64,000 nt of DNA from Prescottella defluvii (lineage in GTDB: Bacteria; Actinomycetota; Actinomycetes; Mycobacteriales; Mycobacteriaceae): positions 1-64,000 of the forward strand of contig NZ_JPOC01000029.1 in assembly GCF_000738775.1 (NCBI RefSeq). Direction: 5' to 3'. The number at the start of each line of letters is the position of its first letter. The stretch's first letter is position 1. Position numbers and translations under genes: made by a program. Shown piece by piece: positions 7,845 through 22,081 of this stretch. Below the pieces are notes generated by a model. That model ran no database searches. It had not been told where the DNA came from and saw only the letters and a list, made by a program, of their open reading frames with translations.

Positions 7845-8690
7845 TCACAGACGACGCAGATGGGTGATGTCGCCGGCCGATACCGCGACCGGCGACTCGC
7901 CCTCTGCCGTGATCACGATCCGCCCCTCGACATCGACATCGGTCGCGATCCCGATCAGTTCCCGATCGCCGGGGAGCTCCGCGCGAACCAACTGTCCGAG
8001 GGTGCCGCACCGCTCCCGGTAGGCGGCCGTGAGGTCCTCCACTCGCCACCCCACCGATTGCCAGTCCCGCCAGCGCCGCGCCAGCTCCCGGAGCACGGCC
8101 CGCAGCAGAATGTCACGGTCGGCGACGTCCGCTTCCTCCAACACCAGTGACGTCGCGGTGGGCACCGGCAACTCGTCCTCGGTCAGGCTCACGTTCAGTC
8201 CGATCCCGACGACGACCGTCGGCACGGGCGCAGTAGCCGCCACCTCCGCGAGAATGCCGGCGACCTTCTTCCCCCCGATGAGGACGTCGTTGGGCCACTT
8301 GAGTTCTGCGTCGACCTTCGCGACGTTGCGCAGGGCGTCCACCACCGCGATCCCGGACAGCAGCGGAAGCCACCCGATGTCGGACAGTTCCAAGCCGGGC
8401 ATGTCGAGCACCGCGGACACCGTCACGAGCGCCCGGGGTGCGCTCACCCACGGTCGCGCGTGCCGCCCGCGACCACCCGACTGGTATTCCGCGACGAGCA
8501 CGCTGCGGGCGTAGTCGCCGTCCCGGGGCCGCGCCAGTAGATCAGCGTTGGTGGAACCGGTCTCGGCCACCACGTCGACACGGGACCAGAACGCGTCCGG
8601 GTCACCCCCGGCGTCGCGGACGAGCGCACGTCGGAGCGCGTCGGCATTCAGCGGGGGTCGGTTGAGATCGGTCCACATGTCTCCAGCCAT
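7845..8690 (-). CDS. birA: Biotin-[acetyl-CoA-carboxylase] ligase
   Basis: BirA activates biotin as biotinyl-AMP and attaches it to the carrier lysine, here most likely of AccA3 encoded in this same window. The biotin/ATP loop SGGRGRHARPW and KWPNDVLIGGKKVAGILAE are present, followed by the small C-terminal SH3-like domain. At 281 residues it lacks the N-terminal helix-turn-helix of bifunctional BirA, so it is a monofunctional ligase. It is divergent from accD5 with 128 bp between. The start may be the ATG at 8690, which would be leaderless, or the ATG at 8678. Confidence 0.95.
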   Translation of the reverse strand: MAGDMWTDLNRPPLNADALRRALVRDAGGDPDAFWSRVDVVAETGSTNADLLARPRDGDYARSVLVAEYQSGGRGRHARPWVSAPRALVTVSAVLDMPGLELSDIGWLPLLSGIAVVDALRNVAKVDAELKWPNDVLIGGKKVAGILAEVAATAPVPTVVVGIGLNVSLTEDELPVPTATSLVLEEADVADRDILLRAVLRELARRWRDWQSVGWRVEDLTAAYRERCGTLGQLVRAELPGDRELIGIATDVDVEGRIVITAEGESPVAVSAGDITHLRRL

Positions 8691-8696
8691 TCGCCC

Positions 8697-8702
8697 AGCC
8701 TA
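8697..8702 (-). promoter_or_regulatory. Candidate -10 box of birA
   Basis: TAGGCT on the minus strand ends 6 nt before the birA ATG at 8690 and no Shine-Dalgarno precedes that ATG, suggesting a leaderless transcript. Confidence 0.4.
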
Positions 8703-8804
8703 GAATGCACCCGGGGGCACTACTGGAATGTGACTCGTCAGTAGCTTAGGTTGAATAATTCAGCGCAACCCGACCTCACTCGACGGAGGCCTCGGAGACC
8801 TGGT

Positions 8805-8810
8805 TAAGCT
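8805..8810 (+). promoter_or_regulatory. Candidate -10 box of accD5
   Basis: TAAGCT ends 8 nt before the accD5 ATG. Polypurine tracts upstream (CGGAGG, near 8785) are too far from the start to act as a ribosome binding site, which again fits a leaderless message. Confidence 0.35.
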
Positions 8811-8818
8811 CACTGCCC

Positions 8819-10459
8819 ATGACCAGTGTGCAGGAGCCAGCCGCGGCGGAGGCGGCGAATACCCCCGATATCCACACGACGGCGGGAAAGCTCGCTGACC
8901 TGCGGAACCGTCAGGCGCAGGCAATGCAGCCGATGGGTGAGGCCGCAGTCGAGAAGGTCCATGCGAAGGGCAAGCTGACGGCGCGCGAGCGCATCACCGC
9001 GCTCCTGGACGAGGGCTCGTTCGTCGAGCTCGACGCCCTGGCCCGGCACCGCAGCACCAACTTCGGCCTCGCCGACAACCGCCCCGTCGGTGACGGCGTC
9101 GTCACGGGCTACGGCACCATCGACGGCCGCGACGTCTGCGTCTTCAGCCAGGACGCCACCGTGTTCGGCGGCTCGCTCGGCGAGATCTACGGCGAGAAGA
9201 TCGTCAAGGTCATGGACCTGGCGATCAAGACCGGCCGCCCGCTGATCGGCATCAACGAAGGTGCCGGCGCGCGTATCCAGGAGGGCGTCGTCTCGCTCGG
9301 CCTGTACGGCGAGATCTTCCACCGCAACGTCCAGGCCTCGGGTGTCATCCCGCAGATCTCCCTGATCATGGGCCCGGCCGCCGGTGGACACGTCTACTCC
9401 CCCGCGCTGACCGACTTCGTGGTCATGGTCGACGAGGCCAGCCAGATGTTCGTCACCGGCCCGGACGTCATCAAGACCGTCACCGGCGAGGACGTCACCA
9501 TGGAGGACCTGGGCGGCGCCCGGACCCACATGGCCAAGTCGGGTGTCGCGCACTACGTCGCCTCCGGCGAGCAGGACGCGCTCGACTACGTCAAGGACCT
9601 GCTGTCCTACCTGCCGAGCAACAACCAGGCCGCGACCCCGCGCCTGGCCCCGACCGATCCGATCGTCGGCTCGATCGAGGACTCGCTCACCGACGAGGAC
9701 CGCGAGCTCGACACGCTGATCCCGGACTCGGCCAACCAGCCGTACGACATGCACGAGGTCATCCGTCGCATCCTCGACGACGACGAGTTCCTCGAGGTGC
9801 AGGCCGGCCGTGCCATGAACGTCATCGTCGGCTACGGCCGCGTCGACGGCCGCAGCGTCGGCATCGTCGCGAACCAGCCCACCCAGTTCGCGGGCTGCCT
9901 CGACATCGATGCGTCCGAGAAGGCCGCGCGCTTCGTCCGCACCTGCGACGCGTTCAACGTCCCGATCATCACCCTGGTCGACGTCCCGGGCTTCCTCCCG
10001 GGCACCGAGCAGGAGTACAACGGCATCATCCGCCGCGGCGCGAAGCTGCTGTACGCGTACGGCGAGGCGACGGTCGGCAAGATCACCGTCATCACCCGCA
10101 AGGCGTACGGCGGCGCGTACGACGTCATGGGCTCCAAGCACATGGGCGCCGACGTCAACCTGGCGTGGCCGACCGCACAGATCGCGGTCATGGGCGCGTC
10201 CGGCGCTGTCGGCTTCGTCTACCGCAAGCAGCTGCTCGAGGCCGCCAAGAACGGTGAAGACGTCGATGCACTGCGCCTGAAGCTGCAGCAGGAGTACGAG
10301 GACACCCTGGTGAACCCGTACGTTGCGGCCGAGCGCGGCTACATCGACGCGGTCATCCCGCCGTCGCACACCCGCGGACAGATCGTCTCCGCTCTGCGTC
10401 TGCTCGAGCGCAAGATGGTTTCGCTTCCGCCCAAGAAGCATGGGAACATCCCCCTATGA
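8819..10459 (+). CDS. accD5: Propionyl/acyl-CoA carboxylase beta subunit
   Basis: A 546-residue carboxyltransferase that moves the carboxyl group from biotin to an acyl-CoA, making (methyl)malonyl-CoA for fatty, methyl-branched and mycolic acid synthesis. The N-domain has the acyl-CoA oxyanion motif [10 protein letters not shown] and the C-domain the biotin-side [15 protein letters not shown]. The Asp in AYDVMGS is the residue tied to propionyl- rather than acetyl-CoA preference in the Streptomyces homologue PccB. It lies between birA and accE5 as in mycobacteria, and overlaps accE5 by 4 bp. The alpha subunit AccA3 is about 9 kb downstream. Confidence 0.96.
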
Positions 10460-10791
10460 CAGCGACCACCCCGGAAGAAGTGCTCACCGACGCCGCGCTG
10501 CTGGACGCGTCCTCGCTCGAAGGAGCTGCGTTGGCCGACGCTGTCGCCGGACTCGAGCCCGCCATCACGTCGGGCCCGCAATCGCCGATGATCACGATCG
10601 TCAAGGGCAACCCGACCGACGAGGATGTCGCCGTGCTTGTTGCGGTGCTGTCCGCGGCGGCCGCCTCGGGTGCGCCGGCCGGTGACGGCCTGCCGCCCGA
10701 GACCTGGGGCGCGCCCACCCGCATGCATCGCGGGCACGCGCCGTTCTCGCCGTACTCGTTCGGCAACCCGGTCGCCGCGCGCCCGTTCTGA
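10456..10791 (+). CDS. accE5: Acyl-CoA carboxylase epsilon subunit
   Basis: A 111-residue small subunit that in mycobacteria and Streptomyces stimulates the alpha-beta carboxylase complex. The N-terminal half is acidic and Ala-rich with low complexity; the diagnostic part is [20 protein letters not shown], one helix of the AccE fold. The C-terminus carries the Trp and aromatic patch ([14 protein letters not shown]) seen in the family. It overlaps the accD5 stop by 4 bp (ATGA), indicating coupled translation. The position directly after accD5 supports the call. Confidence 0.92.
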
Positions 10792-10808
10792 TCGATCGGT
10801 CCGCACAA

Positions 10809-11453
10809 GTGACACACCTGGTTCTCGCCTCGGCGTCCCCGGCACGGCTTTCCGTGCTGCGGGGCGCCGGGGTCGAACCCACCGTCCGCGTCTCCGGCGT
10901 GGACGAGGATGCAATCATCGACCGCCTGGGGCCGTCCGCCGCCCCCGAACTGGTCGTCACCACGCTCGCCGAGGCCAAGGCCCGCGACGTGATTCCCGCC
11001 CTGAATGCCGAGGGCATCACCGACGCCGTCGTGATCGGCTGCGATTCGATGCTGCTCATCGACGGCGAACTGCAGGGCAAGCCGCACACCGTCGACGTCG
11101 CCCGCCGCCGCTGGAAGTCCATGGCCGGCCGCAGCGCGACGCTCCTGACGGGGCACAGTGTGCTCCGCACCGCCGACGGTGCGGTCGTCGCCGAGTCGTC
11201 GGATCACAGTGGCACCGTCGTGCACTTCGCATCGCCGTCCGATGCGGACCTCGAGGCGTATCTCGCGACCGGGGAGCCGTTGAAGGTCGCCGGCGCCTTC
11301 ACCCTCGACAGCCTCGGCGGCTGGTTCGTGGAGCGGATCGAGGGCGATCCGTCGAGCGTCGTCGGGATCGGCCTGCCGCTGGTGCGGCATCTGCTCACCG
11401 ATGTCGGCGTCGGGATCGCCGACCTGTGGGCCGCGAACACTCCGGTTCGCTAG
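10809..11453 (+). CDS. maf: Maf-like nucleoside triphosphate pyrophosphatase
   Basis: Maf proteins hydrolyse non-canonical or specific nucleoside triphosphates (dTTP/UTP types) to monophosphates and have been linked to cell-division arrest. The N-terminal signature LVLASASPARLSVLR and the central GCDSMLLIDGELQGKP are present, as are GRSATLLTGH and EPLKVAGAFTLDSLGG. It is 214 residues long, normal for the family. The GTG start lies 17 bp after the accE5 stop, so it is probably in the accD5-accE5-maf operon, an order shared with mycobacteria. Confidence 0.94.
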   Translation: MTHLVLASASPARLSVLRGAGVEPTVRVSGVDEDAIIDRLGPSAAPELVVTTLAEAKARDVIPALNAEGITDAVVIGCDSMLLIDGELQGKPHTVDVARRRWKSMAGRSATLLTGHSVLRTADGAVVAESSDHSGTVVHFASPSDADLEAYLATGEPLKVAGAFTLDSLGGWFVERIEGDPSSVVGIGLPLVRHLLTDVGVGIADLWAANTPVR

Positions 11454-11460
11454 TCCCGGT

Positions 11461-11829
11461 TCAGTTCCACCCTCGCTGCAGGGCCGCAGCCATCGCCCGC
11501 GCCTTCGTCTTGGCCCGATCGGCGTTCGGTCCCGCGAACTCTTCGTCCACCACCGCGCACCACAACGCCAGCCAGCGTTCCAATCGTTCGCCCGCGAGGC
11601 CGTGCTGTCGGTGCAGCGCGTCGTGCACGGGTCCGAAATGCCCCTGATATCTGACCGTCCGGAACAGGATCTGTTCCCAGAAGTCGCCGACGACGGGTAG
11701 GTGCTCGTCGAGTCCCACCACCGCGAGCGTCTCGAACGCCGGCGCCAGGAGCGGGTCGACCAGCGCCCGCTCGTAGAACGCGCGCAGCAGTCGGTCGATG
11801 TCGGCGCGACCGGTGAGGTCGGGATCCAT
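11461..11829 (-). CDS. Group III truncated hemoglobin
   Basis: A 122-residue globin-like protein. The pattern LLRAFYERALVDPLLAPAFETL, then FWEQILFRTVRYQGHFGPVHDALH, fits group III truncated globins, which bind haem and small ligands such as O2 or NO; the likely proximal His is in the VHDALHRQHG stretch. The ATG follows the TAG stop of the upstream MFS gene with no spacer, so expression is tied to that transporter. It is convergent with maf. The physiological role is not known. Confidence 0.85.
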   Translation of the reverse strand: MDPDLTGRADIDRLLRAFYERALVDPLLAPAFETLAVVGLDEHLPVVGDFWEQILFRTVRYQGHFGPVHDALHRQHGLAGERLERWLALWCAVVDEEFAGPNADRAKTKARAMAAALQRGWN

Positions 11830-13593
11830 CTACCGCGAGTTCCCCACGGCGACACGCGCTTCGACCGGTTCCGACGACTCGACCGCGTCGTCCTCCTCGA
11901 CCCTGTTCCAGCGCGGCAGGGTGAGCGACCCGAGCGCGAGGAGGACACCGATGCCACCGACGACCCACAGCACTCGCCGCTCGGCCTGCAGGAACGCCTC
12001 ACCGGCCGCGGCCCGTGCCGAGTCCAGTGACACCGCCAGCGCCTTGTCGACGATCTGCTGCTGCGCGCCCGTCAGCGAGCCGCCCCCGCCGAGATCGGCG
12101 CAGCCGTCCGGCACCCGCGCCGGATGCGACGACGACAGCTGCTCGGTGGCGCAGTCCACGAACTTCTTCTCCACCTGCGGGATCAGCGGGGCGGGTACTC
12201 CGGCGGACGTCAGACCGGCCACCAGGTCGCCGCGCTGTTGCTGCACCGCGTCGGGGGCCGCGACCGCGACGAGGCCGAAGAACACCACACCGATCACCGA
12301 CAGACCGATTGCACTGCCCACCTGCTGGATGGTGGGCAGCAGGCCGGACACGATCCCGGCCTGCTCCTGACGGACCGAGGCCAGCACCGCCGTCTGCAGC
12401 GACGCGACGAACAGGCCGAGTCCGACACCGCCGACGACGAGTGGCCCGGCCAGCGCCGACAGGCCGGGATCGGTGCCCTCCCGGTGCAGGACCTCGGCCA
12501 GCGCCACCAGCGATCCGGCGAACAGCACCATGCCGAGCGGCAGGACCAGGTTGCCGATTCGCCGGTACACCAGTGCGGCCAGCGGGGCGGCCAGGCCGGT
12601 CCCCACGGCCCACGGCAGCGTGGTGACACCGGCCTTCAGCGCCGAGAACCCGAAGCCGAACTGGAGGGTCAGCGAGATCGTGAAGATCATCGACGTCAGG
12701 GTGCCGAAGAACAGGAACACCATGATCGCGCCGCGGGTGAAGGACCGGTCGGCGCACAGGTCGATGCGCAGTACCGGGTCGCCGCCGCGGCGCGCGAGTC
12801 GGCGCTCGTACACCACGAACACCACCAGGACCGGCACGGACATCGCGAGCATCGTGATCAGCACCGGTGGCCAGCCCCGCTCCCGGCCCTCGACGAGCGG
12901 CCAGATGAGCAGCAGCAGACCGAGCGCCGACAGTGCCGCTCCGACCGGGTCCAGTCGCCGGGGCGTCGGTGGGCGGGCGTCGAGCAGATACCGCCAGGCG
13001 ACGCCGAGGGCGAGCAGGCCCAGCGGCAGATTGACCAGGAAGATCGTTCGCCAGCCCCATCCGAACAGGTCCCAGGCGATCAGCAGACCACCGACGAGCG
13101 GGCCGGAGACGGTGGCCAGGCCGATCGTCGCACCGTAGATGCCGAAGACGCGGGCGTGGCGCGACTTCGGGAACAGTCCGGCGATGAGGGCGAAGGTCTG
13201 CGCCGACATCGATCCGGCGGCCAGGCCCTGGACCGCGCGCGCCAGCACCAGCCACAGCGGGTCCTGCGCGAGACCGCACAGCAGGGACGCCAGCACGAAG
13301 ACGGACATCGCGGCGAGGAACACCCGTCGCCGGCCCAGCATGTCGCCGAGTCGGGCGGCTGTGATGAGGGTGCACGCGAACGCCAGGACGTACACGCTGA
13401 CCATGAGCAACTGCGCGGACGAGTCGGCGCCGAGGTCGGACGCGATGCTGGGCAGTGCGACGTTCATGATCGTCGTGTCGAGCAACTGCATGAACACCGC
13501 GAGCAGGCTGGCGGTCAGGCCCAGCCACGCCCGACGTGGGGGCGGGTACGTCACGGTGTCCGATGGCGTCGGATGCGGCTGCAAAGTTGACAC
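11830..13593 (-). CDS. DHA2-type MFS multidrug exporter
   Basis: A 587-residue member of the EmrB/QacA drug:H+ antiporter family with about 14 membrane helices. Motif C-like residues (GPLVGGLLI) follow the RHARVFGIYGA loop, and motif A-like residues (ADLGRRRVF form LGDMLGRRRVF) lie after helix 2. A large extracytoplasmic loop with two Cys (VDCATEQL, DGCADLGG) precedes the final helix, which is followed by a charged cytoplasmic tail. The substrate cannot be read from sequence. It is divergent from the first PapA-type acyltransferase, so export of the product of that cluster is possible, but this is inference. Confidence 0.9.
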   Translation of the reverse strand: MSTLQPHPTPSDTVTYPPPRRAWLGLTASLLAVFMQLLDTTIMNVALPSIASDLGADSSAQLLMVSVYVLAFACTLITAARLGDMLGRRRVFLAAMSVFVLASLLCGLAQDPLWLVLARAVQGLAAGSMSAQTFALIAGLFPKSRHARVFGIYGATIGLATVSGPLVGGLLIAWDLFGWGWRTIFLVNLPLGLLALGVAWRYLLDARPPTPRRLDPVGAALSALGLLLLIWPLVEGRERGWPPVLITMLAMSVPVLVVFVVYERRLARRGGDPVLRIDLCADRSFTRGAIMVFLFFGTLTSMIFTISLTLQFGFGFSALKAGVTTLPWAVGTGLAAPLAALVYRRIGNLVLPLGMVLFAGSLVALAEVLHREGTDPGLSALAGPLVVGGVGLGLFVASLQTAVLASVRQEQAGIVSGLLPTIQQVGSAIGLSVIGVVFFGLVAVAAPDAVQQQRGDLVAGLTSAGVPAPLIPQVEKKFVDCATEQLSSSHPARVPDGCADLGGGGSLTGAQQQIVDKALAVSLDSARAAAGEAFLQAERRVLWVVGGIGVLLALGSLTLPRWNRVEEDDAVESSEPVEARVAVGNSR

Positions 13594-13646
13594 AGGACGC
13601 CCTTCACTTTACCGATCTTGAAACGTGTTCTTTCCCAAGAATGCAT

Positions 13647-13682
13647 GAAAGTAGACACTTTCGAGACCTTCCCGCCTAATCT
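13647..13682 (+). promoter_or_regulatory. Candidate promoter and operator of the acyltransferase operon
   Basis: A perfect inverted repeat GAAAGT-AGAC-ACTTTC lies at 13647-13662. It covers a possible -35 (TAGACA, 13652-13657), which is 19 bp from a good -10 (TAATCT, 13677-13682). The site is between the divergent MFS exporter and the first acyltransferase, so one regulator could control both. Confidence 0.4.
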
Positions 13683-13740
13683 CGTGAGCGCGCTCGGGGG
13701 TGACTCTGAGCACACCCCACCACCACGACCGCGCGCAGCG

Positions 13741-13780
13741 CCTCCTGGCGACGAGTCGCGGGAGGTGTGCCCGCTACACC
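13741..13780 (+). promoter_or_regulatory. Overlapping leader hairpins before the first acyltransferase
   Basis: Stem one pairs CCTCC (13741-13745) with GGAGG (13761-13765) around an inner GCGA/TCGC stem. Stem two pairs GGTGT (13764-13768) with ACACC (13776-13780). The two share bases and cannot form together. The start codon is at 13796. Confidence 0.3.
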
Positions 13781-13795
13781 TTCGGAGTGCCTTGC

Positions 13796-15277
13796 ATGGA
13801 GCTCAACCTGATCACCCATTGGACGCCGCCATCGGGGCGGCTCGTCGAGTGGACGGTCAGTGATCACGCGGCTCGTGTCGCGGCGGAAGCCGCGATCGAT
13901 CCGGCACTGCCGTCCACAATCCAGGAGCGTCACCTGCGCCGGGCCGCGGTGACGGCACGGACCTCAGCCGCCCAGTCACCGTGGATCGGCATGGCCTTCG
14001 AGATCGAGGGCCCACTGGACGCCCCGGCCATGACGCGGGCCATCGAGACCTACCTGCGCCGGCACGAAACCTTCGCGAGCTGGTTTTCGTTCGAGGACCC
14101 CGACGCCGATCCCACCGATGCGGGCAACCCGATCCGCCGGCACGTCGTCCCGGCGGAGGGGATCGAGCTCGAGCCCCGGATCATCGACGAACACGCGAGC
14201 TCCGAGCAGATCCGCAAGCACGTCGAGCACCGGTTCGCGACCGGCACGTCGGCGCTGTCCTGGCCGGCGTTCGTGTTCGGCGCCGTCGAGCACGACACCG
14301 GCAGCGGCGAGACCGGGGCCGACGCGGCCCGGTTCACGGTGTTCCACGCCGTCGACCACGCGCACACCGATGCACAGTCGATGCTGCTCACGTTCGCCGA
14401 GCTGCGGACCCTGTACCTCGCCGAGGTGTCCGGCACGCCGGCCGAGCTGCCCGACGCGGGCAGTTTCGTCGAGTTCAGCCAGCAGGAGCAGGAGCGGGCC
14501 AAGGCGCTGACCCTGGCGTCGCCGCAGGTCACCGGCTGGCTGTCGCATCTCGCCGAGCACGGCGGCACCCTCCCCAGCTTCCCCCTCGACCTGGGTGTCG
14601 AGGACGGTCCCCGGCCCGCGGTGGGCTCGCGCTTCGACCTGGCGGACCCCGTGCAGAGCGCGCGGTTCACCGAGGTCGCGGCGGCGCACGGCGGGAACGC
14701 CATCGGCGCGTGGTTCGCGGCGCTGGCGATCGTCGAGCACGAGCTCGCCGGTCGGGACCGGTACCTGGGGCTCACTCCGGTGGGCACCCGCGGGGCCGAC
14801 TTCGCCTGGTCGCAGGGCTGGTTCATCAACGTCATCCCGGTGAGCTTCGGCCTCGACGGCGCCACCAGTTTCTCCGAACTCGCCTCCCGCGCGCGGGAGG
14901 CCTACCGGGGCGGTCGCGCGCTCGCGGACGTCTCGGTTCACCGGGTGATCGACATGGTGCTGGCCGCCGCCGGCGACGGCGCCTCGGTCGCCCCGTCGAC
15001 GCTGTCGGTACCGCCGATCGTGTCGTACCTCGATGTGCACCGACTGCCGCTCGACGCGGCCACGGTCGCGGCGTCCCACATCACCGGCCTCGTCGGCGGC
15101 AAGGACACCTCCATCGTGTCGATGTGGATCAACCAGTTGCACGACAGCACCTGGATCGCACTGTCCCACCCCGACACCCCGGCTGCGCACGACTCCGTGA
15201 GCCGCTACGCGGAGCGGTTGGGCGTCATCATTCGCACCGTCGCCGACACCGGCGACTACACAATCGGAAAGGGGTGA
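13796..15277 (+). CDS. PapA-type condensation-domain acyltransferase 1
   Basis: A 493-residue enzyme of the chloramphenicol acetyltransferase/condensation superfamily, in the branch of mycobacterial PapA proteins that transfer acyl groups from a thioester to an alcohol on a lipid. The catalytic HxxxD is His188-Asp192 (DHAHTDA); the usual Gly after Asp is Ala. [10 protein letters not shown] (about 260) and SQGWFINVIPV (the channel loop) are shared with the two other copies nearby. The ATG at 13796 was chosen because it aligns with the starts of the paralogues. It is 5 nt from the next gene, so an operon. Acyl donor and acceptor are unknown. Confidence 0.85.
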   Translation: MELNLITHWTPPSGRLVEWTVSDHAARVAAEAAIDPALPSTIQERHLRRAAVTARTSAAQSPWIGMAFEIEGPLDAPAMTRAIETYLRRHETFASWFSFEDPDADPTDAGNPIRRHVVPAEGIELEPRIIDEHASSEQIRKHVEHRFATGTSALSWPAFVFGAVEHDTGSGETGADAARFTVFHAVDHAHTDAQSMLLTFAELRTLYLAEVSGTPAELPDAGSFVEFSQQEQERAKALTLASPQVTGWLSHLAEHGGTLPSFPLDLGVEDGPRPAVGSRFDLADPVQSARFTEVAAAHGGNAIGAWFAALAIVEHELAGRDRYLGLTPVGTRGADFAWSQGWFINVIPVSFGLDGATSFSELASRAREAYRGGRALADVSVHRVIDMVLAAAGDGASVAPSTLSVPPIVSYLDVHRLPLDAATVAASHITGLVGGKDTSIVSMWINQLHDSTWIALSHPDTPAAHDSVSRYAERLGVIIRTVADTGDYTIGKG

Positions 15278-15282
15278 TCGAC

Positions 15283-16659
15283 ATGCACGTCACCGCTATC
15301 GACCGCTACCACGTCACACCCGGCGAGCTGACGGAATGGCTGGTCACCCCGGACCCGGGGACGGTCACCGACTCCGATCTGCTGCCGTCGTACAACCAGC
15401 ACTTCCACCTCGAGACCGCGCGGATCCACGGCGCCGGGCGCAGCGTGTGGATGGCCGCGGCCTTCGACCTGCCGATCCGCCTCGACCGGGAGGCGCTGGC
15501 GCGGGCGTTCCGGTTGTTCATCGAGCGGCACGACAGCCTGCACACCGGGTTCGAGGTGACTCCGGATTCGATCGGCCGGGTCGATTTCGATCCTCGGCAG
15601 GTACGCGTGACCCCGTCGCCGTCGCAGGTGTTCACCGCGTCGGACGATCTGCGCGACCACCTGCGCGGCCGCTTCACCGAGGTGTGCGACCCGCTGACCG
15701 CACCCGCCTACATGTTCGCGACCATCGAGCGGGACACCTCGTCGACGATCATCGCCGCGTTCGACCACACCCTGGTCGACGGCTACTCGCTGGTGTTCGC
15801 GCTGGCGGACCTCCGTCGGCTGTACGAGGAGTGCGCCGGTCTGACACCGGCCGTCGATCCGCATCCGGCGGGCAGCTTCGTCGCGTTCTGCCGGGACGAG
15901 GCCCGGTCCCCCGCGATCGCCGACAGCGATCCGCGGATCGCCGCGTGGGCGCACTTCTACTCGCTCTGCGGCGGGACGTCGCCCAGTTTCCCGCTGGATC
16001 TGGGTGTGGAGGCGGGGTCGCCGGTGCGGCAGGCCGCCGACGTCCGTCCCCTGCTCGATGCCGAGGCCACCGCACAGTTCGAGCAGCTGTGTGTCGCCGC
16101 GGAGGGCAGCGTGTTCACCGGTGTGCTCACCGCGATGGGCACCGCGATCCGCCGCGCCGGCGGTCCGGCGCTGCTGCCGCTGCAGTTCCCGCTGCACGCC
16201 CGCAACGATTCGCGGTGGGCGGAGGCGATCGGCTGGCTGACCACCAACGGCCCGATCACGGTGTATGCCGACGACGTGGACTTCACGACCGATCTGGCGC
16301 GCACGCACGCCTCGTTCCGGGCGGCGCTGGACGTGCAGGGTGTGTCGATGGCGCAGGTCCGCAACAGCATGGGCGACCGGTACCGGCGGGTCCGCACGGA
16401 CGTCTTCATGGCGTCGTACATCGACTACCGACGGCTGCCGGGCACCGCCGACCACGCGACGCTCAACGCCCACCACATCAGCAATGTCACGGTGGCCGAC
16501 GACGCCCAGTTCTGGATCTCGCGCACCGAGTCGGGTCTGGCGTTGCGGTCCCGATTCCCCGACACCGCGGTGGCGCACGCGACGATCGAGGGGTTCCTCA
16601 CCGAGCTTCGTGCGGTGCTGACGGCCGCGTGCCGTCCGGCGGTGGTCCCGGCGACCTGA
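15283..16659 (+). CDS. PapA-type condensation-domain acyltransferase 2
   Basis: A 458-residue paralogue of the preceding gene. The catalytic motif is complete: His162-Thr-Leu-Val-Asp166-Gly167. N-terminal [15 protein letters not shown] and the [10 protein letters not shown] motif match copies 1 and 3, as does [10 protein letters not shown], the counterpart of the channel-floor loop. A GGAAAGGGG ribosome binding site spans the end of copy 1, so the two are co-transcribed. PapA-type enzymes act on cytoplasmic carrier-bound acyl chains; the lipid made here cannot be named. The protein is well below 50 percent identical to copy 1 by eye, so an old rather than recent duplication. Confidence 0.87.
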
Positions 16660-16744
16660 GGCTCGCGGTGACCTGAGGCAGGTTGTGCGGGTGCGACTAG
16701 AATCGACACGCACAGCCTGCCACCACTGCTTCAGGAGCCCACCC

Positions 16745-17656
16745 GTGCCCGTCGCGCCCGACCCCCATCCCGCGTTCGCTGCGTATACCCATCCGGAGCG
16801 ACTCGTCTCGACCGAGTGGCTGTCCGTCAACCTGGGCACCCCCGGTGTGAAGGTGGTCGAGTCGGACGAGGACGTCCTGTTGTACGACATCGGCCACATC
16901 CCCGGCGCGGTGAAGATCGACTGGCATCTGGATCTCAACGATCCGGTCACCCGCGACTACATCGACGGTGCGGCGTTCGCGGACCTGATGAGCCGCAAGG
17001 GCATCTCCCGCGACGACACGGTGATCATCTACGGCGACAAGAGCAACTGGTGGGCGGCGTACGCGCTGTGGGTGTTCACGCTGTTCGGGCATCAGGATGT
17101 GCGCCTGCTCGACGGCGGCCGCGACGCGTGGCTGTCGGAGAACCGGGACACCACGCTCGACGTCCCGGCGCCGCCGCCGACGCAGTACCCGGTGATCGAG
17201 CGGGACGACACCACGATCCGGGCGTTCAAGGACGACGTGCTGGCGCATCTCGGTGCCGGTCCGCTGGTCGATGTGCGCTCCCCGCAGGAGTACACCGGCG
17301 AGCGCACCCACATGCCGGACTACCCGGAGGAGGGGGCGCTGCGCGGCGGTCACATCCCCACGGCGATCTCGATTCCGTGGGCGCGGGCCGCGGCGCCGGA
17401 CGGGCGGTTCCGCAGCCGTCCCGAGCTCGAGGAGATCTACGCCGACTTCTCGCGTGACGACGACATCGTCGCGTACTGCCGTATCGGGGAGCGGTCGAGC
17501 CACACGTGGTTCGTCCTCACCCATCTGCTCGGGTTCCCGAGCGTCCGCAACTACGACGGCTCGTGGACGGAGTGGGGCAACGTGGTGCGGGTGCCGATCG
17601 TCAAGGGCGACGCGCCGGGTCTGGTTCCGGGCGCCACCGAGGAGGCGGCGTCGTGA
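16745..17656 (+). CDS. sseA: Thiosulfate sulfurtransferase (double rhodanese)
   Basis: A 303-residue protein of two rhodanese domains that moves sulfane sulfur from thiosulfate or 3-mercaptopyruvate to a thiol acceptor. The N-domain (about 15-135) is inactive in form; the C-domain has the catalytic Cys245 in [10 protein letters not shown], with CRIGER as the active loop. The GTG at 16745 was chosen because AGGAG lies 7 nt before it and the conserved part begins soon after. It overlaps the SufE-like gene by 4 bp (GTGA). Position next to that gene and upstream of accA3 matches mycobacterial Rv3283. Confidence 0.95.
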
Positions 17657-18066
17657 GCGTGCCGGACAGCCTCGCCGAGATCGTCGACGACTTCGCCGCG
17701 GTCGGCGCGCAGGACAAGCTGCAGTTGCTGCTGGAGTTCAGTCGCGAGTTGGCACCGCTGCCCGCCGAGCTCGAGCAGGACGCGATGGAGCCGGTCCCGG
17801 AGTGCCAGTCGCCGCTGTTCCTGTTCGTCGACAGTTCGGACCGGGAGAAGGTGCGGTTGCATTTCAGTGCTCCCGCCGAGGCTCCGACGACGCGGGGCTT
17901 CGCGTCGATCCTCCATCAGGGGCTCGACGGGCACAGCGCCGCAACGATTCTCGCGGTTCCCGACGACTTCTACGCGGACCTCGGCCTGGCCGACGCCGTC
18001 AGCCCCCTGCGGTTGCGCGGTATGAGCGCGATGCTCGCACGGATCAAGCGGCACCTCCGCAACTGA
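17653..18066 (+). CDS. SufE-like sulfur acceptor protein
   Basis: A 137-residue SufE-family protein. The sulfur-accepting Cys sits at residue 51 ([14 protein letters not shown]), the same position as Cys51 of Escherichia coli SufE, and the downstream [13 protein letters not shown] and [21 protein letters not shown] match the family core. SufE takes persulfide sulfur from a cysteine desulfurase; the overlap with sseA suggests that here it may instead, or also, accept sulfur from the rhodanese. Corresponds to mycobacterial Rv3284. Start GTG overlaps the sseA stop. Confidence 0.93.
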
Positions 18067-18116
18067 TCGTGCGTCTCGCGTAACACCTGACCCAATTCAC
18101 CCGAAACAGCAATGAC

Positions 18117-18179
18117 CCGGGGAGCGACCCTCCCCGGCAACTTCGACTGTGACGATCTTCACTGCCGCCACCGCGGCGG
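18117..18179 (+). promoter_or_regulatory. Two hairpins between sufE-like gene and acyltransferase 3
   Basis: A perfect 8-bp stem (CCGGGGAG/CTCCCCGG, loop CGACC) occupies 18117-18137; a second stem (CCGCC/GGCGG) occupies 18165-18179. The first may terminate the sseA-sufE transcript, although no T-run follows; alternatively both belong to the leader of acyltransferase 3. Confidence 0.4.
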
Positions 18180-18202
18180 AACAAGAGACTGGATTCTCCA
18201 CG

Positions 18203-19630
18203 ATGGAATTCACCGAGCTCGCGGATTACGCGATCTCCCCCGGCATGCTCACCGAGTGGTTACCCGAAGCGGGGCCCGGGTGGGTGGAGGACGGCCGTCC
18301 CGCCTCCTACATCCACGAGGCGCACCTGCGGCGGACCGCGGACAGCACCCACGACGACGGCCGCGAGTCGTGGCTCGGGACCGCTTTCCGCCTGCCCGGG
18401 TCGCTCGATCACGACGCGTTCCGCACCGCGGTCCGTGCGTGGATCACCCGGCACGAGCCGCTGCGCAGCCAGGCGGAACTGCTCGCCGACGGGCGGGTCC
18501 GCCGGTACACGATCGACGCCGACCACATCGATCTCAATGAGGTTCGTCACGAGTACGAGTTCGACGCCGATACCGTCTTCGAGCGGGTGCACGATCTGTT
18601 CGACGAGCTGACCTCACCGCATCGCTGGCCGGCCTATCTGTTCGTCACGCTCGAACACTCGGACCCCGAGCCGGGCTGCACGGTGTTCTTCGCCGCGGAT
18701 CATTCGCTGATCGACGGACTGTCGGTGGTGCTGGTCGCGCACGAGATCACCCGTCTGTACACCGAGGCGCTGACGGGCAGCCCGTCGGATCTGGTTCCGG
18801 CCGGCAGCTACATCGATTTCGGTGCGGAGGAACGCGCCGCCGCGGCGACGGTCGATCACCGGCACCCGGCCGTCGACTGTTGGCGGACGGCCTTCGTGCG
18901 CAGCAAGGGCCGGCTGTCGGATTTCCCCCTCGATCTGGGGCCGCGGCCGGAGAATCGGGTCGCGCAGCAGGCGGTCTCGGAGTGGGTGTTCGACGCCCGC
19001 CAGGCCGCGGCCTTCAACACGGTGTGCCACCGCGCCGGGCAGAACTTCTTCGCCGGCGTTCTCGCGTGCCTGGCCCAGTCGAATGCCGAACTCACCGGCA
19101 ACACGGTGTTCCGGACGGTGACGCCGGTGCACACCCGCCACGATCCGCACTGGGCGACGTCACTCGGCTGGTTCGTGGGCCTGACCCCCGTCGAGTTCGA
19201 CATCGCCGGGGCCGCCGACTTCGCCGAGTCCGCGGCGCGCGCGGCTGCCGCGGTGTCGTCGACGAAGTCGGCGGCGAAGGTGCCGTTCGCCCGGGTGGAG
19301 GAGATCCTCGCGACTCCGATCCGACCCCGGTTCGTCGTGTCGTTCATGGATGTCCGTTTCGTTCCGATGGCTCAGCAGTGGCCCGAGGTCCAGGCGCGCG
19401 CCCTCCGCAGTCGTCACTACACCCACGACGTGTACATCTGGGTGAACCGAACGCCCCACGGGCTCAACGTCTCCGCACGGTTTCCGGGAACACCCACCGC
19501 GATCGAGGCGGTCCGGCTCTTCCTGAACCGGGCCAGGCGGGCCCTGCTGGAGGTGGTTCCGGCCGAGGAACCGGCCCGCACCGTCGCACCGGCCGTCGCC
19601 GCGGGAATCCATACCACTACTGATCAGTAG
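18203..19630 (+). CDS. PapA-type condensation-domain acyltransferase 3
   Basis: The third paralogue, 475 residues from the ATG at 18203. The HxxxDG motif is intact (His167, Asp171, Gly172, in DHSLIDGLS). Also shared are ADYAISPGMLTEWLP at the N-terminus, FPLDLGPRPE and SLGWFVGLTPVEF. An upstream in-frame GTG at 18149 would add 18 residues, but the chosen start aligns with the other copies. It is separated from copies 1 and 2 by sseA and the sufE-like gene and lies just before accA3. Likely esterifies a lipid or sugar alcohol with an acyl chain; the substrate is unknown. Confidence 0.87.
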   Translation: MEFTELADYAISPGMLTEWLPEAGPGWVEDGRPASYIHEAHLRRTADSTHDDGRESWLGTAFRLPGSLDHDAFRTAVRAWITRHEPLRSQAELLADGRVRRYTIDADHIDLNEVRHEYEFDADTVFERVHDLFDELTSPHRWPAYLFVTLEHSDPEPGCTVFFAADHSLIDGLSVVLVAHEITRLYTEALTGSPSDLVPAGSYIDFGAEERAAAATVDHRHPAVDCWRTAFVRSKGRLSDFPLDLGPRPENRVAQQAVSEWVFDARQAAAFNTVCHRAGQNFFAGVLACLAQSNAELTGNTVFRTVTPVHTRHDPHWATSLGWFVGLTPVEFDIAGAADFAESAARAAAAVSSTKSAAKVPFARVEEILATPIRPRFVVSFMDVRFVPMAQQWPEVQARALRSRHYTHDVYIWVNRTPHGLNVSARFPGTPTAIEAVRLFLNRARRALLEVVPAEEPARTVAPAVAAGIHTTTDQ

Positions 19631-19788
19631 GGTTGCGGCGCCGAACGCAGCCCTTAATGTGTAAGCCCGATCCGGTTACATCGTCTATCGGATTGGTGCC
19701 TACACTCCGATGAGATGCCATCAGATACCTGCCGGTGATGCTCACGGGTGAACCGCGGGGACAGACCATGCGAAACACAGGAGGCTCA

Positions 19789-21579
19789 GTGCCCAGTCAT
19801 GCCAGCGCGCACATCACGAAGGTGCTTGTCGCCAACCGCGGCGAGATCGCTGTGCGGGTCATCCGAGCCGCTAAGGACGCCGGATACGGCAGCGTCGCTG
19901 TCTACGCGGAGCCCGATGCGGACGCACAGTTCGTGAAGCTCGCCGACGAGGCATTCGCCCTCGGTGGTCAGACGTCCGCCGAGTCCTACCTGGTGTTCGA
20001 CAAGATCCTCGACGCCGCGAAGAAGTCCGGCGCCGACGCGGTCCACCCCGGCTACGGCTTCCTGTCGGAGAACGCCGACTTCGCGCAGGCCGTCATCGAC
20101 GCGGGCCTGATCTGGATCGGCCCGTCGCCGCAGTCCATCCGCGACCTCGGCGACAAGGTCACCGCCCGCCACATCGCCGAGCGCGCGAACGCTCCGATGG
20201 CGGCCGGCACCAAGGATCCGGTCAAGAACGCCGACGAGGTCGTCGAGTTCGCCAAGCAGTACGGCGTCCCGGTCGCGATCAAGGCTGCCTTCGGTGGCGG
20301 CGGTCGCGGCATGAAGGTCGCGCAGACCATCGAGGAGATCCCCGAGCTGTTCGAGTCGGCCACCCGTGAGGCCATCGCCGCCTTCGGTCGCGGCGAGTGC
20401 TTCGTCGAGCAGTACCTGGACAAGGCCCGCCACGTCGAGGCCCAGGTCATCGCCGACCAGCACGGCAACGTCGTCGTCGCCGGCACCCGCGACTGCTCGC
20501 TGCAGCGCCGCTTCCAGAAGCTCGTCGAGGAGGCCCCCGCGCCGTTCCTGACCGACGACCAGCGCGCCCGCATCCACGCGTCCGCGAAGGCCATCTGCAA
20601 GGAGGCCGGCTACTACGGCGCCGGCACGGTCGAGTACCTGGTGCAGGGCGACACCGTCTCCTTCCTCGAGGTCAACACCCGCCTGCAGGTCGAGCACCCC
20701 GTCACGGAAGAGACCGCGGGCATCGACCTGGTGCGTCAGCAGTTCCTGATCGCCAACGGTGAAGAGCTCTCCATCAAGGAAGATCCCACCCCGCGCGGTC
20801 ACTCCTTCGAGTTCCGCATCAACGGCGAGGACGCCGGCCGCGGCTTCATGCCGGCTCCCGGCCCCGTCGCCGTCTACCGCGAGCCCTCGGGCCCCGGCGT
20901 GCGCGTCGATTCCGGTGTCGTCGCCGGCGACGTCATCGGCGGACAGTTCGACTCGATGCTCGCCAAGCTCATCGTCACCGGAGCCACCCGCGAAGAAGCC
21001 CTCCAGCGAGCATCGCGCGCTCTGGCCGAGTTCGAGATCGACGGCCTCGCGACCGTCCTCCCGTTCCACCGCCACATCGTCGAGAACCCGGCATTCGTCG
21101 GCAACGGCGAGTCGTTCGACATCTACACCAAGTGGATCGAGACCGACTGGGTCAACACCATCGAGCCGTACGCCGGCGCCGGTGTCGTTGCCGATGACGA
21201 GGAGAACCTGCCCCGTCAGCAGGTCGTCGTCGAGGTCGGTGGCCGTCGTGTCGAGGTCTCGCTGCCCGGTTCGTTCTCGGTCGGCAATTCTGGCGGTGCC
21301 AGCGGCGCTGTTCGTAAGAAGCCGAAGGCGCGCAAGCGCGGTGGCGCCGGTGCCGGTGCCGCGTCCGGTGACGCCGTGACCGCCCCGATGCAGGGCACCG
21401 TCGTCAAGGTCGCCGTCGAGGAGGGCCAGGAGGTCGCCGAGGGCGATCTGATCGCGGTCCTCGAGGCCATGAAGATGGAGAACCCGGTCACCGCCCACAA
21501 GGCCGGTGTCGTGACGGGTCTGTCGGTCGAGGCCGGCGCCGCCATCACCCAGGGAACGGTCCTCGCCGAACTGAAGTGA
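19789..21579 (+). CDS. accA3: Acyl-CoA carboxylase alpha subunit (biotin carboxylase/carrier)
   Basis: A 596-residue fusion of biotin carboxylase (about 8-455) and a C-terminal biotin carrier domain. The carboxylase part has [22 protein letters not shown], the ATP-grasp glycine loop [11 protein letters not shown] and the catalytic [15 protein letters not shown]. Biotin is attached to Lys562 in EAMKMENP, the substrate of BirA. A basic, Ala/Gly-rich hinge ([14 protein letters not shown]) joins the domains. The GTG start was chosen because AGGAGG lies 5 nt upstream. In mycobacteria AccA3 is the shared alpha subunit for AccD4, AccD5 and AccD6 complexes. A strong terminator follows. Confidence 0.97.
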
Positions 21580-21604
21580 TGCTCCGGTAGGAACACCCAG
21601 CATT

Positions 21605-21639
21605 CTGTGCGCGCCTCGCGATTCGCGAGGCGCGCACAG
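21605..21639 (+). terminator. Strong hairpin after accA3
   Basis: A perfect 16-bp stem (21605-21620 with 21624-21639) closes on an ATT loop, 26 nt after the accA3 stop. There is no clear T-run, as is common for terminators in this GC-rich group. Confidence 0.8.
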
Positions 21640-21663
21640 TGCTGTTCGGGGCTGTTCGGGCAG

Positions 21664-21669
21664 TAGTCT
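21664..21669 (+). promoter_or_regulatory. Candidate -10 box of the DUF1707 gene
   Basis: TAGTCT ends 7 nt before the ATG at 21677 and there is no Shine-Dalgarno, pointing to leaderless transcription. Confidence 0.35.
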
Positions 21670-21676
21670 CTACGGC

Positions 21677-22081
21677 ATGTCCGATCTTCCGGAAATTCGC
21701 GTCGGCACCGTCGAACGCGAACACGCACTCGACGCGCTGACGCAGCACCTCTCCGACGGCCGGCTCACCGTCACCGAGTTCGACGAGCGCAGCGGGCGGA
21801 TCGCCGCGGCCACGACGCGTGGGCAACTGGACCGGGTGTTCGACGATCTGCCGGCGCTCACACCGTCGGCGGCGGCGGCGAAGGTCTCACCCGAGGCCGA
21901 GAGTGCCGCCCCGGAGAAGCCGTGGCGCAACATCGTCATGGCGGTGATCCCGTTCGTGGCGCTGGCACTGTTCTTCCTGGTGCCGATCGACAACAGTTGG
22001 CTGTTCTTCCTCCTGATTCCCGCGACAGGGGCGATCCTGTTCGGCGGCGGGGACGGCAGGAGAGGACGCGGCGGCCACTGA
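21677..22081 (+). CDS. DUF1707 membrane protein
   Basis: A 134-residue protein. The N-terminal 55 residues form the DUF1707 helical domain: REHALDALTQHLSDGRLTVTEFDERSGRIAAATTRGQLD, recognised by RLTVTEFDER and TRGQLD. A linker leads to two membrane helices (about 85-122) and a basic Gly/Arg-rich end. DUF1707 proteins are frequent in actinobacteria, usually as short membrane-tethered proteins; the function is unknown. Its TGA overlaps the ATG of the next gene by one base, so the downstream GNAT-like and VanZ-like genes are probably co-transcribed. Confidence 0.88.
   Translation: MSDLPEIRVGTVEREHALDALTQHLSDGRLTVTEFDERSGRIAAATTRGQLDRVFDDLPALTPSAAAAKVSPEAESAAPEKPWRNIVMAVIPFVALALFFLVPIDNSWLFFLLIPATGAILFGGGDGRRGRGGH

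Follow-up and report, generated by a model that had tools for sequence, protein, structure and literature searches.

Three PapA2-like acyltransferases of three old classes at the sseA–sufE–accA3 locus of Prescottella defluvii

The first 64,000 nucleotides of contig NZ_JPOC01000029.1 of Prescottella defluvii (assembly GCF_000738775.1; this whole stretch is called the window) carry three acyltransferase-like genes, P1, P2 and P3, around sseA and a sufE-like gene. P3, P1 and P2 turned out to belong to three different old classes (A, B and C, respectively) of the PapA2-like family of stand-alone condensation-domain proteins. P3 is a long-standing resident of the sseA–sufE–accA3 locus and no intrusion. 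P1, P2 and a divergent major facilitator superfamily (MFS) transporter gene form a sharply bounded block. A first-pass annotation had proposed that an accessory lipid pathway was built into this locus. The feature is real and conserved, and a Rhodococcus-type glycolipid acylation set explains it better than a new pathway woven into the core locus. The earlier interpretation was borne out in part: the PapA identity, the idea of several acylations and the MFS as probable partner were supported; the inserted pathway was not supported, and the link to (methyl)malonyl-derived chains is weak.

11461..11829, reverse strand: orf122, small protein bordering the block on its left side, flanked by maf and the MFS gene
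11809..16719, no strand assigned: MFS–P1–P2 block, 4.9 kb, lacking in the other sampled Prescottella
11830..13593, reverse strand: MFS transporter gene, EmrB/DHA2-like, divergent from P1 (PF07690, 157.5 bits)
13796..15277, forward strand: P1, class B PapA2-like acyltransferase, 493 residues
15283..16659, forward strand: P2, class C PapA2-like acyltransferase, 458 residues, starting 5 bp after P1
16745..17656, forward strand: sseA-like rhodanese (sulfurtransferase; PF00581, 116.6 bits)
17653..18066, forward strand: SufE-like protein (PF02657, 106.3 bits), start picked by eye
18203..19630, forward strand: P3, class A PapA2-like acyltransferase, 475 residues, resident of the locus
19768..21579, forward strand: accA3-like biotin carboxylase, a neighbour (PRK08591, 539 bits, under the cut-off of 597)

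Family membership and the three classes

The open reading frames (ORFs) lie where the first-pass annotation had placed them: P1 and P2 precede sseA, and P3 follows the sufE-like gene; the start codons of P1, P2 and P3 were picked by eye. The proteins are condensation-domain proteins, as had been read from their letters. All three passed the PF00668 cut-off of 30.6 bits (P1 49.1, P2 42.0, P3 85.9), and PF00668 was the only Pfam family listed for each, so none is a multidomain synthetase. The whole genome yielded 55 PF00668 matches. Since all the others sit in frames of at least 878 residues, most of them several thousand long, P1–P3 are the genome's sole stand-alone PF00668 proteins.

The assignment to the PapA type was supported by comparison with solved structures. 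PapA2 (PDB 6aef), the trehalose-2-sulfate acyltransferase of Mycobacterium tuberculosis, was the top solved relative by sequence for P1, P2 and P3 (E = 8.6e-42 for P3), with a near full-length alignment and a shared HxxxD motif. The predicted models of P1 and P2 also fold closest to PapA2 among solved structures, 11–13 Z units above every nonribosomal peptide synthetase (NRPS) domain listed. Identity to PapA2 in these structural alignments is 29% for P1 and 24% for P2. PapA2 has a zinc motif (PMC6996325; this and the papers below are cited from excerpts). The FPLDLG motif and the N-terminal PG-x-L-x-EW motif, of which P1 has the version SGRLVEW, were seen in the translations as first reported. 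FPLDLG is a family trait, because PapA2 carries FPLPLG at the same place. The HxxxD residues were followed in alignments of chosen relatives (18 of 35 P1 relatives, 16 of 120 listed proteins, 20 of the 74 loci retrieved by a class C profile search, and a few added loci). H188 and D192 were invariant in the P1-type alignment (n = 23), as were H162 and D166 in the P2-type alignment (n = 21); in the P3-type alignment (n = 20), D171 was invariant and H167 was kept in at least 90%.

The family search proposed by the first-pass annotation separated P1–P3 from two other acyltransferase groups. None scored near the PapA5 model NF006787 (P3 22.9 bits against a cut-off of 396; P1 and P2 not listed at E 0.01), which makes them PapA2-like and not PapA5-like. 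Models of the wax ester synthase/diacylglycerol acyltransferase (WS/DGAT) were not listed for any of the three at E 0.01 in NCBIfam or 0.1 in Pfam.

The wide sequence divergence that had been noticed was borne out (P3–P1 identity 32%, P3–P2 31%). A tree of 96 proteins fell into three deep clades, each with a Shimodaira–Hasegawa-like approximate likelihood-ratio (SH-aLRT) support of 99: A holds P3, B holds P1 and C holds P2. Streptomyces and Saccharopolyspora members occur in all three and branch first, with the mycolate genera above them. This tree came from a quick search without bootstrap, and 24 of its 93 inner forks are open. The window P1 and P2 were sister to all eight sampled sets of Rhodococcus sensu stricto, which were supported at 97 in B and 96 in C; the joining of the window protein was supported at 100 in B and only 84 in C. 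The sister position to Rhodococcus received only 81/69 support when a bootstrapped tree was built from 22 of the 35 P1 relatives. There, a metagenome protein 87–88% identical to P1 pairs with that of the window.

A resident gene and a bounded block

A close sufE was present in 85 of the 111 genomes of the family sampled. A P3 relative stood directly behind it on the same strand in at least 48 of these 85 and in 11 of 23 genera, a lower bound drawn from the 85 sufE places and 64 of the rows listed. These counts speak against a pathway inserted into a locus otherwise free of it. In M. tuberculosis the order is maf–sseA–Rv3284–accA3 without such genes, as the first-pass annotation states. Since the P3 relative is widespread behind sufE in the family, loss in M. 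tuberculosis is likelier than insertion here.

P3 was found in 12 of 14 Prescottella genomes, its own included. Ten others carry it at the same place with 77–94% identity, and an eleventh has a split copy. That split copy belongs to the P. defluvii assembly G002 (79% complete), where accA3, sseA and accD5, like P3, are also broken up across frames (L071:403-8394); sequencing error is the likely cause, because four genes of the locus are all affected. P1 and P2 were sought in the 13 other Prescottella genomes and found in none. The P2 search returned a single match in each of 11 of these 13, and the ten matches with listed places are their P3. Presence by genus, which the first-pass annotation had proposed to map, gave a split picture: the P3 class is widespread in the family, and MFS–P1–P2 is usual in the Rhodococcus loci seen here and present in 1 of 14 Prescottella. 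The edges of the block are sharp. Alignment to the congeners G007 and G006 ends at 11808 and restarts at 16728 and 16720, respectively, and the ten congeners compared yield no alignment in any 500-base bin between 12000 and 16000.

The gene order in the window is accD5-like, maf, orf122 (reverse), MFS (reverse), P1, P2, sseA, sufE, P3 and accA3-like; the names accD5 and accA3 are presumed from mycobacterial gene order. The corresponding place in Rhodococcus holds maf, MFS (reverse), P1, P2, sometimes orf122, sseA, sufE, P3 and accA3. The combination MFS–B–C was seen in 15 of 74 named loci, 14 of which also have class A behind sufE. In all 15 Rhodococcus loci measured (14 genomes, L113 and L134 being one), P1 and P2 overlap or lie within 4 bp, and sseA, sufE and P3 follow each other within 21 bp. 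These short gaps make two transcription units, P1–P2 and sseA–sufE–P3, likely in Rhodococcus. Some Rhodococcus have a lone further class C copy away from the locus (L105:9449-10834, L111:9452-10849, L112:9139-10521); an ORF of about 1300 residues lies near those of L105 and L111.

Two histories of the block were compared. A gain in the window's Prescottella lineage from a Rhodococcus-like source is the probable one; retention from an ancestor, with many losses in other Prescottella, is less favored. A five-protein tree, in which several forks are not starred, nests the window genome inside Prescottella, so that retention needs about eight losses by our own count against one gain. The place of orf122 also differs. 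It directly adjoins sseA in all 13 other Prescottella, where it is conserved between maf and sseA; in the window it lies outside the block, between maf and MFS. Where Rhodococcus loci possess orf122, it stands between P2 and sseA. This difference favors, without proving, a separate arrival of the block. A recent gain is disfavored by other measurements. Relative to Rhodococcus, the P2/P3 divergence ratio (0.56–0.67) is near the Rhodococcus-internal mean of 0.65, the P1/P3 ratio (0.47–0.62) is under the mean of 0.77 and inside the internal range of 0.35–1.09, and an 87% identical P1 occurs on a 3.2-kb metagenome contig (P0006). A recent foreign origin by composition was unsupported: the GC content at third codon positions of MFS, P1 and P2 (0.905–0.917) lies inside the range of the other genes measured (0.837–0.941).

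Identity along positions 8500–22000 of the window shifts between congeners, with G007 nearest from sseA to P3 (89–96%) and other species nearest in parts of accD5 and accA3, with identities reaching 98%. This shift suggests recombination around the block. Recombination also disturbs the five-protein tree, because P3 is nearest to G007 and the tree places G006 nearest.

The A–B–C triad and its neighbours across genera

Beyond Prescottella, the three classes travel together. We fetched 74 named loci with the class C profile, with flanks of up to 10 kb that are shorter at contig ends. Class labels in this survey are those of the best-matching window protein; 19 of the 74 loci are on the 96-protein tree, and all 96 rows fell in the labelled clade. 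Genus names follow record titles, and 14 loci titled Rhodococcus show a Rhodococcoides-type order. Classes A, B and C were adjacent and in fixed order in 53 loci, from Streptomyces to Gordonia. Of these triads, 32 immediately precede sseA and are joined by another class A gene after sufE (Rhodococcoides-type loci, Williamsia, Gordonia soli and one titled Kitasatospora). Three more are alike, with maf in between. The remaining 18 are without sseA and accA3 in the fetched flanks (Gordonia, Nocardia, Millisia, Antrihabitans, Williamsia sterculiae, Saccharopolyspora and Streptomyces). The locus titled Kitasatospora arboriphila (L195) has a Williamsia-like A–B–C–sseA–sufE–A–accA3 order and is probably mislabelled or contaminated.

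The neighbours differ between arrangements. A relative of a GT1-type glycosyltransferase lies beside 49 of 53 triads and a DrrB-type ATP-binding cassette permease relative beside 29 of 53; both are beside none of the 16 B–C loci titled Rhodococcus. The MFS gene is beside the B–C pair in 15 of these 16, which makes the transporter a probable partner, as had been suggested. A recurrent cluster of WS/DGAT-like, GT1, GT2, DrrA/DrrB and A–B–C genes was seen in Gordonia, Williamsia, Nocardia, Millisia, Antrihabitans and Rhodococcoides trifolii (L139, L144, L147, L149, L154, L161, L165, L180, L182, L185 and L190), and it looks like a complete glycolipid pathway. The WS/DGAT-like label is weak (one match in L139 of 41.9 bits against a cut-off of 309.95; two L116 proteins had no match). 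In the window genome, GT1 and DrrAB genes elsewhere were rejected as parts of the pathway. The sole GT1 relative is weak (E = 8.6e-11), and the DrrB (66% identity) has DrrA beside it, with GT1, GT2 and WS/DGAT-like relatives absent in the 20 kb around.

Each of five genomes of the R. erythropolis group yields exactly six matches in frames shorter than 700 residues, arranged as two A–B–C sets; the second set was placed on the tree for L122 only. In a class-wide sample, the class C profile, which the rows for the window itself show to pick up classes A and B too, matched at 1e-40 in 67 of 394 genomes: 31 of this family, 17 of one large-genome genus of another family and 19 elsewhere.

Around the genes of the window, orf122 gave no match in the NCBIfam scan and a single sub-threshold match in Pfam (13.9 bits against 27). 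The MFS protein scored 216.3 bits with TIGR00711, under the cut-off of 230.2. About 24 kb past the window end, the contig carries an MmpL-type gene (C29:87866-89797). Contigs C47 and C51 start with near-identical MmpL matches (both 516–1520), probably an assembly duplicate.

Proposed function and its alternatives

With modest confidence, we read the locus as a three-enzyme set for stepwise sugar acylation with MFS export. In P3, P1 and P2 alike, the HxxxD histidine would serve acyl transfer, with acyl-CoA as the probable donor. Each enzyme would acylate its own hydroxyl on a shared small sugar, most likely trehalose, to give a di- or tri-acylated glycolipid, and the neighbouring MFS protein would export it, a probable role by association. 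The first-pass annotation had suggested two or three acylations on one acceptor, an idea to which one member each of three co-travelling, fixed-order classes lends support at the sequence level. Trehalose is the best guess for the acceptor because of the relation to PapA2, and because the five R. erythropolis-group genomes have exactly six stand-alone matches each, in two A–B–C sets, while TlsA is reported to be key in trehalose acylation.

Published work already places such papA genes in two Rhodococcus genomes, according to the excerpts available. Rhodococcus sp. I2R has four on one contig, which annotation and similarity, and no gene tests, tie to succinoyl trehalose lipids (PMC8396431). 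The first two starts are 1478 bases apart, as in L181 (7089 and 8567), and the gap before the fourth fits sseA–sufE, so the spacing agrees with A–B–C–[sseA–sufE]–A. The nearest 16S relatives, KRD197 (L181) and R. yunnanensis (L138), both have A–B–C–sseA–sufE–A. Compared with the window, the I2R group has one class A gene extra, and loci of its type have GT1 and no MFS beside the triad. The same excerpt describes TlsA of R. erythropolis SD-74 as a papA relative that is key in trehalose acylation for succinoyl trehalose lipids and, like P1–P3, as a PapA-related acyltransferase. If SD-74 is typical, TlsA should be one of the six R. erythropolis proteins, since the five genomes show just two A–B–C sets. 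We dropped its assignment to class B. The printed E-values of the TlsA comparison are 8e-70 to 8e-30 (PMC8396431); our proxies were 6e-70 for the R. erythropolis class B protein against R. yunnanensis (the I2R stand-in), 2e-90 against KRD197, and 4e-80 to 9e-87 for the second-set class C protein, and they single out no one class.

For R. opacus S8, which forms two glycolipids, two papA2 and one papA3 are given as surfactant genes, standard for Rhodococcus (excerpt of PMC9229178). The R. opacus locus L129 (MFS–B–C–orf122–sseA–sufE–A) likewise has three such genes, and the two loci are presumably the same. R. oxybenzonivorans SK11 has one papA3 near a glycosyltransferase (excerpt of PMC13206832). 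The three-class structure, the fixed triad and the link to sseA–sufE–accA3 were not found in the excerpts of open-licence literature searched, a weak absence.

Several points weigh against the stepwise set. Because 12 Prescottella have P3 and only the window genome has P1 and P2, P3 must manage without them. Shared transcription is less clear in the window species, owing to the sufE–P3 gap of 136 bp. A glycosyltransferase or polyketide synthase (PKS) was not found among the ten neighbouring proteins scanned with NCBIfam. The R. qingshengii record L126 carries the full locus, and no glycolipid was found in R. qingshengii VT6 (excerpt of PMC9229178); this disfavors constant production by carriers of the locus. 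In the same excerpt, the genes tested other than alkB showed no dependence on carbon source.

A different division of labor has a distinctly smaller, although real, chance of being correct: P3 would be a core enzyme with its own acceptor, and P1–P2–MFS an independent two-step glycolipid cassette that shares the address. Eleven other Prescottella carry class A without B and C, as this division would have it. In 35 of the 74 named loci (32 directly before sseA, 3 with maf between), a full triad is accompanied by a further class A behind sufE, which may therefore have its own job. However, the single class A behind sufE completes the three classes both in the window and in 14 of 15 MFS–B–C loci (the class C gene of L137 is in two pieces), as expected for the stepwise set.

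The first-pass annotation had connected the enzymes with (methyl)malonyl-derived chains. It is improbable that they esterify such chains and owe their place at the carboxylase locus to this, like the enzymes of mycobacterial polyketide lipids. The adjoining accD5- and accA3-like genes are in line with this connection, as is the triad of Streptomyces cinnamoneus (L186:13278-21026), which is followed by a type I PKS of 2582 residues (Pks2 sulfolipid model, 1095 bits, under the cut-off of 2400); a relative of that PKS flanks one of the 16 Rhodococcus B–C loci. The 18 of 53 triads without sseA or accA3 in the fetched flanks weaken it, and a PKS relative is beside just 1 of 53 triads and 1 of 16 B–C loci. 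Methylmalonyl-derived chains were not singled out as donor in the analysis. Peptide-bond-forming or inactive NRPS-type condensation domains are a very improbable explanation of P1–P3. PF00668 membership, in a genome rich in NRPS-type frames carrying the same domain, points that way, but the PapA2 match is far above the NRPS domains, P1–P3 have no second Pfam domain, and HxxxD is kept.

For the wider family, we tentatively propose, as an idea that we would not yet call probable, that the three classes make up a portable acylation module of three enzymes, one that predates the split of Streptomyces, Saccharopolyspora and the mycolate genera. Each class would own one sugar hydroxyl. The gene order would be kept while the acceptor-making (GT1, GT2) and acyl-supplying parts (Pks2-like PKS, perhaps WS/DGAT-like) and the exporters (DrrAB, MFS) are swapped, and sseA–sufE–accA3 would be a recurrent docking site. 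With three fixed classes at known gene positions, the question of which enzyme serves which sugar position becomes a plain deletion series. Strains with P3 alone and with P3, P1 and P2 within one genus offer a natural lipid comparison.

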